A DNA stretch of 64,000 nucleotides. Source: Acidobacteriota bacterium (lineage in GTDB: Bacteria; Acidobacteriota; Terriglobia; Terriglobales; Acidobacteriaceae). The DNA is taken from positions 555,450 through 619,449 of the forward strand of contig JABCZI010000002.1 of NCBI GenBank assembly GCA_013289765.1. The letters are read 5' to 3'. The translations under genes and the position numbers were made by a program. The notes beneath the pieces are model-generated. The model did not search any database. It was not told the origin of the DNA and worked only from the letters and a program-made list of their open reading frames with translations. Numbering within the stretch: position 1 is the first letter of the stretch; every line of letters starts with the position of its first letter. This document shows positions 47,414-53,553 of the stretch, piece after piece.

Positions 47414-50400
47414 TTACGACTTCAAGGGCTTGATGCGCTCGGCAACATCGCGATAATCGATGTTGCGGCCGTAAACCTCCATGAAGTGCTTGAGGGCAGA
47501 GGCTCTGTCACCGGCCGTTTCATAGGCTGCGGCCAGCTCATAGTGGAGAGCCGTCCGGGTTTCTTCGTCAATGCCCGGGGCATTGAGGGCTTTCTGGTAC
47601 CAGCGAATAGCGGCCTCAGGAACGCCTTTGTCGAGAAAGCATTGTGCCAACCAAGTATAAGCTTGCATGGCTTGCGGGAAGGGATGTCCGCGATCAACAG
47701 CCTGGCAGGTCTTTTGCAATTCGCCAATAGCTTCGTCGAGCAAACCCATTTCGCGGAACGCGATGCCGAGATTGTAGTGAGTCTCGGGATCTTCTTCAGT
47801 GGTGGCAGAGCCGGCTTCGAGATCCTGCTTCAACTCCCCAAACATTTCCGCGAGGTCAACCCCGGCGTCCTCAGAAAAGGGCGAGGCCTTGGTTGCTGCG
47901 GAGGCAGAAATGGACGGAGAGACCTTGGGCGTCGCGGGTAATGAAGTCGCGGATCGGTGTGAAACCGTGGGAACACCGGAAGATGCTGCGGCTGCCGCGG
48001 CGTTGCTCGAGACCGGAGCGCTGACTAGAGCGCTGGGTGTCGGCACCGGCCGATGCTGCGCCAGAGGTGCGGCGCCCGGAGTTTCAATTTTAAGTGCAGG
48101 CTGTGTGCGTGCGGCGGGCTGAGCCTGGGGTGCGGACTCAGGTTCGGGAATCGGTGCGCCCTGCAGGAAGTCGTCACCCAAAGAAGCTTCCAGATCGGCG
48201 ACGAACTCACCCATGGGCTCTGCTTGGGACACACCGAAAGTTGTGGGGGCGGCGTTTCCGATGGACTCAAGTTCGGGGTGTGCATGGTGGGCCGGTTGAG
48301 AAGCTGCCGAGGATTGTTCGATTACAGGCTCGGGTTCGTGAGGGACAGCGCCCGGAAGGAAAGTCTCGCCAAGAGAAGACTCGAGGTCGGAAACGAATTC
48401 TTGAAGCACGCCCGGAGCCGGGTCAACAGGAGATTCGTTAACTAGAGCCTCCTCGATAACCGCCGGCTCGGCGTGCTGCACAAGCGGAGCGGGCGCTTCC
48501 ATCACCGGCATGGGCGGCTGCACGGCAACCTCTTCTACAACAGCGGGAGCTTCTTCAATAGCAGAAGAAATTTCGTCGACGGCAAATTCAGCAGTCGGCT
48601 CGCTGATGGAAAATTCGGGGGCAGCTTCAAGCGTGGTCGCTTCCGTTACTGTGGAGTTTGGCTGTAAGGCCTCGTCAATTTCAGCTCGAAGCTTGTTGAG
48701 CGTAGCTTCATCAGCGGTGAGAGATTTAATTTTTGCAAAAGCTGCTGAGGCCTGCTCGGGCATGCCATGCTCGAGGAAGAAATGAAACTCTTCAATGGCA
48801 TCCGCAATCTTTTCGGTATGCTGCTGGGCCGCGGCCATGTCGTGATCACCTGCGCCATCAGTGACTTCACCTGCCGCGGCCTCGGCGGGCAGAGCGTCCG
48901 CTTCGATGGTGATCGCGTCATCCCACTCCGACGACAGGTCGATTTCGGCGGGAGATGCAGGTTCAGAGACTGCGGATGGAGGTTCATCCCTCTGGTGGTC
49001 CTGCTGATCGGCGACGACGGCGAACTCGGATTCCTCAGCCGCCAGCGGCGGAGCGGCCGGCCATGGAGTCGAGGCAGCAGACGCGCCTGAAATTTCCGCT
49101 GCTGCTGATTCTGCTGGCGAAGCTGCGTGCTCGATTACGGAATTGGCGACCGCTGCAGATGCCGAGCGATCTTCGTAACGGTCAGCGAGTTCGCCGTACC
49201 GCGTGGCTTCTTCGGGATGGTCGGCTTCGGAGTAAATATTCTGCAACGTGCGGCAGCAGACGGCAGCTTCGGCGAAACGAGCAGCGCGGGTATGAAGCGC
49301 GGCAAGCCGCTGATTCAGTCGCAGATCATTAGGCGCTTGCGGAATCGCGGACATGAGCGGTCCAAGAGCTTTGGCCGGCATGTTGTAAGAAATGAAAAGC
49401 TCAGCGTCAGTGAGCGCGGATCGAATGGCGAGGGCGACGGCATCGGAATAGTGCTGGTGGATGGAAGGAGCGGTCGCTTCCAGTTCGTCAACGATAACGG
49501 CCGCTTCATCGGCGGAAATGAACTTTGCCGCCGATGATCCCCCAATCTGGCTGACCACCTGCTGGTAATTGTCCATGTGCAGGGGATTGCCGGGCTCCAT
49601 GGCGGCAAGTTTTTGATACAAGTCGCGCGCGCGGGGCAACTCGCCGGCCTGGACTGAGGCATGGGCCAATAACTCGATGACTTCGGTGATGTGAGTAGTG
49701 TCTCCGGCCTTCTGGAAGAGGTCGAGAAGTTTCTCCAGCGAAGCGGGATTGTCGCGTACGTGTCCGATTACAGAGTGAAGATTTTTTAGAACTTTGGCGG
49801 AGTCTTCGGAAAGCAGGCGGTCAGCATGCTGATCATAGACCTGAAGCGCGTTCTCGTATTGTCCGGCCTGCATGAGAGCATCGGCCAAAATGGAAATCGC
49901 AGTGAGGTCGTTGTGTACCGTCTGGAGTTTACTGGCGAGGGTGCCAGCATCCGAGAGACGTCCCATTTTTAGATAGGCTTTGAGCAGATCGCGGAGGCCC
50001 TCGATATTGGAATCGAGATTGGGAACTTTTTTGAAGGATTCGATGGCGGCTTCGGCGTCCCCGGCCTCGAGTTGGTTGCGGCCCTGAATGAGTAACGCAT
50101 AGCTGTTGCCGGGATCGAGCGTGAGCATGCGTTGCAGGACTTCTTCAGCACCGCTCAGGTTGCCCTTGGCGCGCAAAGTTTCAGCGGCGGCGGAAAAGAT
50201 TTGCCAGGCGTCGTTTTTCTTGCCCAGACGAATGTAGACTTCCGCCAGGCGGACACGCATGGAAGTGTTTTCCGGATCCATTTCCAGAATCTTCTGGAAG
50301 ATGCGGACGGCGTTGTCGAGTTCGCCGGATTTCAGAAATTCTTCGGCTACCTGCATGTATTGCGAGCGGGCATCATTGAAGAGTCCCTGCTGGGTGTAGA

Positions 50401-50713
50401 GTTCTGCCAGCTTCAGCACGCCCTCTAAGGAAGGCTTGAGCTTACTGATTTTCTTGTACATGGCGATGGCCTTAACCGTGAAACCCTGGTTGGCATAGGC
50501 ATCGCCGACACTCTTGAAGCATTCCGTAGCTTTATCGATTTGGCCGAGGCGGGAATAGAGATCGCCAACGGTGTTGGTGACGGTGAGGTCCTTGGGATCG
50601 GCCTTGAGGACCTTTTCGTACTCAGCGATGGCATTCTGCATCTTGCCCTGCTGGACATACTTCTCCGCAGCGCTGAGTACTTTTTGTTTGTTGAACCCGA
50701 AACCGAACGCCAT
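47414..50713 (-). CDS. Large TPR-repeat scaffold protein
   Basis: The start ATG at 50713 gives a 1099-residue protein without signal peptide or membrane helix. TPR units occupy about residues 1-530 (for example EYEKVLKADPKDLTVTNTVG, RIFQKILEMDPENTSMRVRL) and again about 955-1099 near the C-terminus (HYNLGIAFREMGLLDEAIGE). Between them is a 400-residue Ala/Pro/Glu-rich linker of low complexity with several short repeats of EFVADLEASLG/EFVSDLESSLG. The linker repeats could be interaction motifs. A cytoplasmic scaffold role is inferred, and the partner is unknown. It starts from a 392-base region shared with the AhpD-like gene. Confidence 0.85.
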   Translation of the reverse strand: MAFGFGFNKQKVLSAAEKYVQQGKMQNAIAEYEKVLKADPKDLTVTNTVGDLYSRLGQIDKATECFKSVGDAYANQGFTVKAIAMYKKISKLKPSLEGVLKLAELYTQQGLFNDARSQYMQVAEEFLKSGELDNAVRIFQKILEMDPENTSMRVRLAEVYIRLGKKNDAWQIFSAAAETLRAKGNLSGAEEVLQRMLTLDPGNSYALLIQGRNQLEAGDAEAAIESFKKVPNLDSNIEGLRDLLKAYLKMGRLSDAGTLASKLQTVHNDLTAISILADALMQAGQYENALQVYDQHADRLLSEDSAKVLKNLHSVIGHVRDNPASLEKLLDLFQKAGDTTHITEVIELLAHASVQAGELPRARDLYQKLAAMEPGNPLHMDNYQQVVSQIGGSSAAKFISADEAAVIVDELEATAPSIHQHYSDAVALAIRSALTDAELFISYNMPAKALGPLMSAIPQAPNDLRLNQRLAALHTRAARFAEAAVCCRTLQNIYSEADHPEEATRYGELADRYEDRSASAAVANSVIEHAASPAESAAAEISGASAASTPWPAAPPLAAEESEFAVVADQQDHQRDEPPSAVSEPASPAEIDLSSEWDDAITIEADALPAEAAAGEVTDGAGDHDMAAAQQHTEKIADAIEEFHFFLEHGMPEQASAAFAKIKSLTADEATLNKLRAEIDEALQPNSTVTEATTLEAAPEFSISEPTAEFAVDEISSAIEEAPAVVEEVAVQPPMPVMEAPAPLVQHAEPAVIEEALVNESPVDPAPGVLQEFVSDLESSLGETFLPGAVPHEPEPVIEQSSAASQPAHHAHPELESIGNAAPTTFGVSQAEPMGEFVADLEASLGDDFLQGAPIPEPESAPQAQPAARTQPALKIETPGAAPLAQHRPVPTPSALVSAPVSSNAAAAAASSGVPTVSHRSATSLPATPKVSPSISASAATKASPFSEDAGVDLAEMFGELKQDLEAGSATTEEDPETHYNLGIAFREMGLLDEAIGELQKTCQAVDRGHPFPQAMQAYTWLAQCFLDKGVPEAAIRWYQKALNAPGIDEETRTALHYELAAAYETAGDRASALKHFMEVYGRNIDYRDVAERIKPLKS

Positions 50714-50740
50714 ATGAGTACAGACTCCAGAACCTGGTGT

Positions 50741-50772
50741 GAACCGAGAAACTTCTGAACCGAGAAACTTCT
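50741..50772. repeat. Tandem duplication of a 16-base unit
   Basis: GAACCGAGAAACTTCT occurs twice in exact tandem (50741-50756 and 50757-50772) and is followed by a partial third copy (GAACC). It lies 30 bases upstream of the TPR gene start on the minus strand. It may be a replication-slippage product or an operator. Confidence 0.7.
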
Positions 50773-50909
50773 GAACCCAAAAATTCGTACAGCGAATATT
50801 TATGACGGTCCGGGCGGTGTGCCCGGCGAACGTCACATGGCCAGACTCCTGTTTCGGAGGTGGCCCTTCGGACAAGGGCAATTGTACGGCTGGGCGAGTG
50901 AAAACGTGT

Positions 50910-50954: not shown

Positions 50955-51383
50955 AGGGCATTAGGTCCGTCGAGTGCTCAAGGGACGGTTCAAACCATAG
51001 AAAACGGTGAGCCGATAGTATGGACGTGCTATTTGATGACGTTCCGCATCCGTGTACCCTTCCGATGCGCAATTCTTGAGACTGTTAGACGAGGGGAGCG
51101 CCAACATGACTTGGATTCGAACCATACCGATGGCGGAGGCGGATGAGAAGTTGCGGCGGGCGGTTGAGGGACAGAAGGCGCTTTATCCCAAGGAGTATGC
51201 CGAGCCGGTACGTCCAGATGATGCTGGCGGGGCGTCGATCGTAGGGGCGCACACGTTATTGCCGGAGGCGCTCTACCATTCGTTTGCCACGTTTGGTGCG
51301 CTAATGTCGCCGGAGTTGCCGTGAGCCGGCGGCAGCATGAAATGATTACCACGATGGTCTCGGTCACCAACCGGTGCGTCTAT

Positions 51384-51386
51384 TGA
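51384..51386 (+). other. Candidate selenocysteine (TGA) codon in a CxxU motif
   Basis: In the frame that matches the AhpD-like C-terminal half, the reading is TGC GTC TAT TGA ATC GAG. That gives Cys-Val-Tyr-(TGA)-Ile-Glu-Ser-His, the CxxC/CxxU redox motif of AhpD-like proteins. The conservation of IESHAEF after the TGA argues that the downstream part was selected after the TGA arose. Confidence 0.6.
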
Positions 51387-51391
51387 ATCGA

Positions 51392-51421
51392 GTCGCACGC
51401 AGAGTTTCTGCGTAGAGTGAC
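51392..51421 (+). promoter_or_regulatory. Candidate bacterial SECIS hairpin
   Basis: Perfect stem ACGCAG (51397-51402) / CTGCGT (51408-51413) with loop AGTTT. An extra A-T pair could close it to seven pairs, and an outer GTC (51392-51394) / GAC (51419-51421) stem is separated by an internal loop. The loop contains G-U, 18-19 bases after the TGA, within the range known for bacterial SECIS elements (fdhF type). The region is coding, as bacterial SECIS elements are. Confidence 0.5.
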
Positions 51422-51816
51422 GCTGGACGCGAAGTTAGTGGAGGCATTGGAGAAAGACTACAGGACCGCGCCCATGACTGCGCAGGAGCGGGTGATGCTG
51501 GACTATGTGGTTCAGTTGACGAAGGATGCAACCAGGATTCGGAAGGCCGACATTGAGGGCCTGCGAGCTGCCGGATTTGATGATCGGGGAATTCTGCAGA
51601 TCACCATGATTGCGGCCTGGTTCAATTCGATTAATCGCGTGGCGGATGCGCTGGGGGTCGGTAGAGATTGATATGCGGGTGCCGGTGTTGCTGGGATTCA
51701 CGAGTACCGAATTGACTTCGGTCCCGGGTACCGAATGTATTTTCAAGGAGGGCGAACAGGCGGCCGCGGCAAAGATAGTTCATCCGCTCTGGGCCATGCG
51801 ATAAGATCAAAGTGCA

Positions 51817-53553
51817 ATGAAATCATCTCATCCCCCGACTGAAACTGGAGAAAAAGCTGTGGCTGCATCGCCCTTACCTGCTCCGTCGAATTTTATCCGC
51901 GACATCATCGTCGAGGATCTCAAAGCCGGTAAGCACAACGGCCGCGTGCAGACGCGCTTCCCTCCCGAGCCTAACGGACACCTGCACATTGGCCATGCCA
52001 AGGCCATCTGCATTGATTTCGGCCTGGCTGACGAATTTGGCGGACATACGAATCTTCGCTTTGACGATACGAATCCCGAGAAGGAAGAGACGGAATACGT
52101 TGAGTCCATCAAGGCTGATGTGAACTGGCTGGGCTTTCAGTGGGATGGGCTTTTTTATGCGTCGGACTATTTCGACCAGCTTTACGAGTGGGCCGTCAAA
52201 CTGATTAAAGATGGCAAGGCCTACGTCGACGATCTGACGGCCGGCGAGATTCGCCAGCATCGCGGGACGCTCACGGAGCCGGGCAAGAACAGCCCTTATC
52301 GTAGCCGGGCTGTCGAAGAGAACTTGAATTTGTTTGAGCGCATGCGCGCCGGAGAATTTGCCGATGGCTCGCGCACGCTGCGGGCGAAGATCGATATGGG
52401 GTCGCCGAACCTGAATATGCGCGATCCGGTGATGTACCGAATTCTGCATGCGGAGCATCACCGCACCGGAAATAAGTGGTGCATTTATCCCATGTACGAT
52501 TTCGCGCACGGGCAGTCGGATTCGATCGAGCGGGTCACGCACTCGCTTTGCACGCTGGAGTTTCAGGATCATCGCCCGCTTTATAACTGGTTCATCGAGC
52601 AGCTGGGAATTTTCCCGTCGCGACAGATTGAGTTTGACCGGTTGAACCTTACTTACACGCTGCTGAGTAAACGCAAGCTGTTGCAGTTGGTGCAGGAAGG
52701 CCGGGTGAATGGCTGGGATGATCCGCGCATGCCGACGCTGGGTGGTATTCGCCGGCGCGGCTATACGCCCGAAGCGGTGCGAAATTTCTGCGGCGCGATT
52801 GGGGTATCGAAGACCAACGGCTCGATCGAGCTGGCGATGCTTGAGCACTTCGTGCGCGAAGATTTGAACAAGCGTGCGCCACGAGTGATGGCGGTGCTGC
52901 GTCCCTTGAAAGTTGTGATCAACAATTATCCGGAAAATCAGGTCGAAGAGATGGACGCGGTTAACAATCCGGAAGAAGCGAGCGCTGGTTCGCGCAAAGT
53001 CCCATTCGCGCGCGCTCTCTACATCGAGCAGGATGACTTCCGCGAGGAGCCACCGAAGGGATATTTCCGCCTGTCGCCGGGGCGCGAAGTTCGGCTGCGC
53101 TATGGCTACCTTGTAACTTGCACGGGGGTCGTGAAGAACGAAAACGGCGAGGTGGTGGAAGTGCATTGCACCTACGATCCGGCAACCCGCGGAGGAAACA
53201 CTCCTGACGGTCGCAAAGTAAAGTCGACGATTCACTGGGTATCGGCCGCGAATGCGCTCGATGCCGAGGTGCGGATTTACGAAAATTTATTTACCAAAGA
53301 AAATCCGAATGAGGTGGAAGATGGGCAGGATTTCACCGCGAATCTGAACCCGAAGTCGCTGGAAGTAATCAGCAACGCGAAGGTTGAGCCGTCTTTGGCT
53401 GGGGCCGCGGCCGGAAGCAGGTATCAGTTTGAACGCCTGGGATATTTTTGCGTCGATCCGGACTCGAAGCCGGATAAGCTAATTTTTAATCGGACCGTGG
53501 CGTTGAAGGATACTTGGGCGAAAGTGGAGAAGAAGCAAGGCACCAAGTCTTAA
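51817..53553 (+). CDS. glnS: Glutaminyl-tRNA synthetase
   Basis: This class I synthetase charges tRNA-Gln directly. The HIGH motif is at residues 57-60 ([10 protein letters not shown]) and the KMSKS equivalent is in [11 protein letters not shown]. The catalytic core includes [16 protein letters not shown] and [11 protein letters not shown], and the C-terminal half is the beta-barrel anticodon-binding domain ([19 protein letters not shown]). Length 578 is normal. ATG at 51817; the first 20 residues are poorly conserved. It follows the AhpD-like gene by 146 bases, with no obvious functional link. GlnRS instead of the amidotransferase route occurs in only some bacteria. Confidence 0.97.

Follow-up and report, generated by a model that had tools for sequence, protein, structure and literature searches.

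The peroxidase-related gene and its surroundings

The window, meaning the whole 64,000-nucleotide stretch of DNA analysed here, lies on contig C2 of an acidobacterial genome of 4.8 Mb (18 contigs, 97.6% complete). At 51106-51671 on the forward strand it carries a gene of the AhpD/CMD superfamily, assigned to TIGR01926, 'peroxidase-related enzyme' (Table 1). In profile searches, the C-terminal half alone reached 108.5 bits with TIGR01926 (cut-off 81.8) and 33.6 with PF02627 (cut-off 23); the N-terminal half alone matched no Pfam or NCBIfam model, and it aligns with the intact relatives. Two models of other seleno families, searched with the C-terminal half only, stayed below their cut-offs, namely NF041238 AhpD_rel_CFYUT (52.7 versus 175 bits) and NF053654 GroundWater_YciW (34.4 versus 310 bits). 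The first-pass annotation had treated 51106-51671 as one gene span, which overlooks that the two halves lie in different frames, the reading frame being lost by one base about 60 bases 5′ of an in-frame TGA.

Table 1. Features of the peroxidase-related locus (positions within the window).
Feature	Position	Strand	Remarks
Divergent gene for a TPR-repeat-like protein	47414..50881	-	listed ORF; TPR repeats recognised by eye
N-terminal half, own frame	51106..51324	+	ATG at 51106; frame stops at TGA 51322-51324
Site of frame loss relative to intact relatives (one-base frameshift)	51316..51324	+	80 fetched loci pass in one frame
C-terminal half, other frame, CMD/AhpD core	51321..51671	+	open but for the in-frame TGA; stop TGA 51669-51671
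Glu codon	51339..51341	+	aligned with the Glu of 2pfx, 3c1l and 2oyo
Cys codon, first redox residue of CxxU	51375..51377	+	from alignments
In-frame TGA, predicted selenocysteine codon	51384..51386	+	TGA in 80/80 and 30/30 loci
His codon of CxxUxxxH	51396..51398	+	from alignments
Predicted coding SECIS hairpin ACGCAG-AGTTT-CTGCGT	51397..51413	+	arms 51397-51402 and 51408-51413, loop 51403-51407, G-U at 51404-51405; folding and conservation
Downstream glnS-like gene	51817..53553	+	listed ORF

The predicted protein has the layout Glu-x11-Cys-x2-Sec-x3-His, in which E79, C91 and H98 are invariant across 40 aligned rows; the Glu is presumably a member of the AhpD catalytic set. Sequence relatives of known structure include 2pfx, 3c1l, 2oyo, 6k40 and 2prr (E 2.5e-29 to 5.3e-22). 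In 2pfx, 3c1l and 2oyo the Glu, both redox positions and the His all align with those of the window gene, but these proteins have Cys at both redox positions. The TGA stands at the second Cys position of the CxxC motif, exactly where the first-pass annotation had put it. The Tyr codon directly before it (TAT, 51381-51383) is frozen almost like the hairpin described below, being TAT in 77 of 80 relatives with two changes on the codon tree, whereas another Tyr of the same gene is mostly TAC (66 of 78).

The TPR gene was matched at 36 of the 80 relative loci, some of which have short flanks, and shares a contig with the peroxidase gene in three genus-mates (G006, G082 and G123), so that this gene neighbourhood is kept in many relatives. 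The downstream gene, which from its motifs we take to encode glutaminyl-tRNA synthetase, was not matched anywhere in the 80 loci, flanks of up to 6 kb included, and lies on a different contig from the peroxidase gene in the same three genus-mates. A stretch of about 40 bases at 47315-47372 matches many places in G006 and G123 and is likely a dispersed repeat. Equal-scoring pieces resembling an elongation factor (tuf-like) were found at the right end of the window (C2:619002-619445) and at C16:5-448, both contig ends, and the assembly may break at this repeated region. Elsewhere on C2, a CxxC-form AhpD-like gene (C2:163845-164228, minus strand; L024:8816-9550) stands tail to tail with selB.

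Residues at the TGA site in relatives

A protein search returned 939 matches, and among the 120 listed the position of the TGA is written as Trp in 75, Cys in 42, Ser in one and Leu in one. The remaining protein, P0068, is without the stretch; about 20 residues around the site are missing, likely a gene-model artefact that hides a TGA. For three of the Trp-written proteins (P0025, P0040 and P0041) the identical 150-residue core was found on DNA that carries TGA, and their Trp is therefore a TGA read under another code; the Trp of the other 72 probably has the same origin.

At the DNA level, a pattern-based scan of species genomes with a 40-row alignment gave 308 relatives, of which the top 80 were fetched; the ranking was by likeness to a Sec-form first row and so favours Sec forms. 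All 80 have TGA at the site as the sole internal stop, over an aligned span of 1-188 in 78 loci, 1-185 in one and 1-187 in another. By their record titles these are mostly Acidobacteriota MAGs, with one from Latescibacterota (L090) and two from Gemmatimonadota (L105 and L114), binning errors among them being possible. TGA was likewise present in 30 of 30 loci from a search of the window's bacterial family. In a sample of 150 genomes of that family, its own included, the gene occurs among the listed rows at an identity of at least 67% in 34; it is full-length with a single TGA in 31 of these and broken in the window's own genome, G078 and G092. The copies in G092 (L219) and G078 (L220) are interrupted by frame or stops, and still contain the TGA and the hairpin core. 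A scan of viral contigs for the protein gave no match.

When the Sec label was placed on a protein tree that covered all the listed proteins but P0068 (119 of 120), six changes were needed, at least four of them forced by well-supported branches, which means that Sec and other residues have been swapped more than once. The first-pass annotation had asked whether Cys or Sec occupies this site in homologues; both do, Sec being predicted at every fetched TGA locus and Cys standing in the 42 listed proteins noted above. We regard it as almost certain that this is a family of selenoproteins.

A coding hairpin with frozen letters

The 6-bp stem, the 5-base loop and the G-U 18-19 bases after the TGA, all described by the first-pass annotation, are exact to the base. 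RNAfold adds one pair to this hairpin, which leaves GUU as the loop, at -15 kcal/mol. The printed bacterial SECIS (bSECIS) model (PMC13188914, Fig. 2) allows a loop of 3-9 nt with G in the first two loop positions, a stem of 4-16 bp, a distance of 16-37 nt from the UGA and an MFE <= -7.5, and the window hairpin (loop GUU or AGUUU, stem 6-7 bp, 16-17 nt) lies within these limits, which bears out its description as SECIS-like. Fold energy by itself is unremarkable: a 47-nt stretch has z -0.79 and folds no better than shuffles (41 of 200 fold as well), and a 66-nt stretch has z -2.08 (7 of 200). What lifts the hairpin above chance is the TGA in all 80 relatives together with the freezing of the hairpin codons.

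Indeed, the codons behind the TGA are nearly uniform across the 80 loci (CAC 78, GCA 80, GAG 80, TTT 80, CTG 80, CGT 77), while the next Arg codon beyond CGT is spread over more than four codons. The hairpin is therefore kept in Sec-form relatives, a point on which the first-pass annotation had made its reading depend. On a codon tree, codons +5 to +8 (GCA GAG TTT CTG) show no change at all, +4 (CAC) shows two and +9 (CGT) three; 57 other codons whose residue is conserved in 95% show a median of 24 changes on the same tree and a minimum of 2, this minimum being the Tyr codon before the TGA. The tree was built without the hairpin codons from 83 of 87 distinct sequences (the window plus the overlapping sets of 80 and 30 loci), L038, L044, L060 and L100 being left out by a register and stop filter. 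The control for hairpin constraint was thus the other codons of the same gene; a control with Cys-form DNA was dropped, the 301 plasmid records all being less than 60% identical (best listed 33%).

Free folding of 81 sequences formed all six stem pairs in 75, some of them in three and none in three (L085, L106 and L108). The stem is nearly invariant in the 80 loci and shows no covariation; since it hardly varies, covariation gives no result here, and the invariance neither supports nor denies pairing. Changes that would keep both the residue and the stem through G-U pairs (GCA to GCG, CTG to TTG) are absent from the 80 loci, and so is TTT to TTC, where the base concerned is in the loop or the closing pair. 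That such pairing-neutral synonymous changes go unseen suggests that the letters matter, not only the shape, and SelB may accordingly read letters here as well as shape.

The same bacterial family has a second AhpD-like gene (L202-L218), 33-45% identical to the window gene. In all 17 loci fetched it has, like the window gene, a TGA at that position, and xDSHAYFLR or a close variant of it comes next. Unlike the window gene, it has the repeat CTTCCTG-6 bases-CAGGGAG (17 of 17), which lies further from the TGA; in free folds of this stretch, the repeat stem forms in some loci only.

Selenocysteine machinery in the genome

The first-pass annotation had proposed a search for the sel genes, and selA (545.7 bits over two pieces), selB (355.5 bits) and selD (373 bits) were all found above their cut-offs, whereas no selC turned up in the assembly. 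The selD gene (C2:298120-299046; TGA at L025:6151) reads AAG-TGA-ASKLSP at a redox-type site with a predicted hairpin behind it, and from this in-frame TGA SelD itself is predicted to contain Sec. A peroxiredoxin-like gene on C7 (L184:1114-2454, a 446-residue frame) reads SADW-TGA-PFCKGQ, with the TGA at 1615 and a perfect inverted repeat, GCAGCTG-GTC-CAGCTGC, shortly behind it; RNAfold of a longer stretch prefers another fold. This gene is predicted to be another selenoprotein gene.

For tRNA-Sec, the best RF01852 match in the assembly, with 150 of 673 candidates scored, reached 46.6 (cut-off 47) and is a tRNA-Ser, and blastn with the selC of a genus-mate gave nothing better than E 0.117. A pattern of tRNA-Sec-like anticodon and T arm had nine matches in the genome, and ARAGORN found no tRNA-Sec in the five loci submitted to it: L027 is a tRNA-Leu, L033 contains only a tRNA-Val elsewhere in the locus, and L028, L030 and L034 contain no tRNA. 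Among 20 relatives searched, 19 have an RF01852 match of 64-72 bits, and ARAGORN gave a tRNA-Sec with TCA in all six that were tried of these 19; in the remaining relative (G084) the best match over the cut-off is a tRNA-Ser. Because a tRNA-Ser can thus pass the cut-off, the 64-72-bit matches were used instead of the cut-off. A peroxiredoxin gene precedes selC in four genus-mates, with selC 0.1-3.6 kb downstream of it. This selC-adjacent peroxiredoxin has no close match in the window's own assembly (best 31%), nor does the selC block stand there beside its S1-like neighbour.

An assembly gap is the simplest account of the missing selC. A lineage that is losing Sec decoding, with selC gone, one selenoprotein gene frameshifted, and selA, selB and three UGA-bearing genes (the window gene, selD and the peroxiredoxin-like gene) left over, seems improbable to us.

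Alternative readings of the TGA and of the lost frame

Could the TGA be a plain nonsense mutation of a gene in decay, one that fell on the CxxC motif by chance? The window copy does have a second lesion, its frameshift, and frame-broken copies are also found in G078 and G092. For the family, however, this reading is contradicted by the same TGA in all 80 fetched relatives, which are otherwise intact, by the frozen hairpin codons and by a C-half dN/dS of 0.04-0.14 in nine intact pairs (the tenth is undefined), and we hold it to be very unlikely. The concern about unrelated degradation that the first-pass annotation had raised therefore applies to the window copy and not to its fetched relatives. 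The organism might instead read TGA as tryptophan throughout (code 4), making the site a plain Trp codon, as the 75 Trp-written proteins would have it. Yet TGA is the terminator of 27 of these 80 genes and of the window copy too, the residue usually found at the site instead is Cys, and selD and the peroxiredoxin-like gene have TGA at redox-type sites as well, which leaves such a code with hardly any credibility. We therefore keep to selenocysteine for the TGA of this family and turn to the state of the window copy.

Intact copies of the gene are present in three of the four genus-mates searched (G006, G082 and G123); the fourth, G143, gave a remote match only, and 6.5 kb of sequence next to its TPR gene contained no such gene. 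For the C-terminal half, dN/dS is 0.061, 0.073 and 0.072 between the window and the three genus-mates, and 0.072, 0.074 and 0.039 among the genus-mates themselves. For the N-terminal half it is 0.178, 0.131 and one undefined value against the genus-mates, and 0.253, 0.102 and 0.027 among them. Since dS to the genus-mates is near saturation (1.26-1.42), these values argue against decay of long standing but say nothing against a recent break.

Either recent inactivation or an assembly error lies behind the frameshift, and the two look the same in these data. We put at about even odds that the frameshift is real, the strain having recently inactivated its copy, with the TGA and hairpin as fresh remains. 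The lack of such a gene in G143, the frame-broken copies in two further family members and a downstream gene order unlike that of G006, G082 and G123 would fit this, while the absence of any sign of relaxed selection (a weak test by dN/dS) and the open frames of selA, selB, selD, the TPR gene and glnS argue the other way. That the gene is intact and works as a selenoprotein gene, with one base wrong through sequencing or assembly, has, in our estimate, a little under an even chance: the relatives, three genus-mates included, are intact and constrained, and the TGA and hairpin of the window are in perfect order, but the few other genes examined show no error like it. A programmed frameshift that joins both halves in normal expression would agree with the resemblance of both halves to intact relatives; the 80 fetched relatives all run in one frame, however, so that there is nothing programmed to conserve, and we give this idea almost no weight.

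Taken together, our preferred reading, with a probability of about 0.87, is that a TIGR01926 gene is present in the window in a copy whose TGA is a predicted Sec codon and whose hairpin is kept, with the frame lost 5′ of the TGA, so that this copy likely makes no full protein as assembled. The proposal of a selenoprotein in the first-pass annotation is thus borne out at the level of the gene family, and likewise for the window's TGA and hairpin, where relatives, Sec/Cys exchange, selA, selB and selD, and the frozen codons agree; two of its own tests, on unrelated lesions (the frameshift) and on sel genes (no selC in the assembly), speak against this copy as a working gene.

Relation to known selenoproteins

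A TIGR01926 CxxU selenoprotein family is already known. Table 1 of a 2026 review (PMC13188914) includes 'AhpD-like protein, TIGR01926, CxxU' among predicted selenoproteins; this entry has the same NCBI family model as the window gene, CxxU and one Sec, and cites MCB9421940.1 as its example. The window copy differs in being frameshifted. The main text of that review has no word beginning with 'acidobacteri'. The precedent from metagenomic surveys to which the first-pass annotation appealed is also in print: the Sargasso Sea and GOS reports (PMC1088965, PMC2398784) describe AhpD-like (COG2128) CxxU selenoproteins that, like the window gene, have a bacterial SECIS behind the TGA. Unlike it they come from marine samples, and the likeness is at the level of AhpD-like proteins. 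For Acidobacteria, four selenoproteins in three families are given in one study (PMC1794560), and one acidobacterial genome with three known selenoproteins was used in another (PMC12013277). Literature searches on selenoproteins, selenocysteine and tRNA in Acidobacteria or Acidobacteriota, with subscription papers mostly outside their coverage, returned no title on this gene. As far as these searches show, the new elements are how widely the gene occurs in acidobacterial genomes, the freezing of the hairpin letters and one copy with a frameshift; overall, the finding is sound and mostly ordinary.

Implications

In the intact relatives, the hairpin that closely follows the UGA would be bound by SelB carrying the Sec-tRNA, and selenocysteine delivered by SelB would be inserted at the UGA in place of the second Cys of CxxC. 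Peroxide attacks this second Cys in M. tuberculosis AhpD. With Sec in its place, peroxide is predicted to be reduced by the selenol and the intermediate to be resolved through a Cys-Sec bond, and Sec at this second redox position would likely make a faster peroxidase, which a partner would then reduce.

Such genes are easily missed by annotation, as relatives have been deposited with Trp at the site or without the stretch altogether. The gene family is also a clean case of a predicted SECIS within coding sequence, its letters fixed while other codons change. Finally, the two related AhpD-like genes of this bacterial family, with their different hairpins, are a ready pair for testing whether SelB reads such hairpins in a letter-specific manner.
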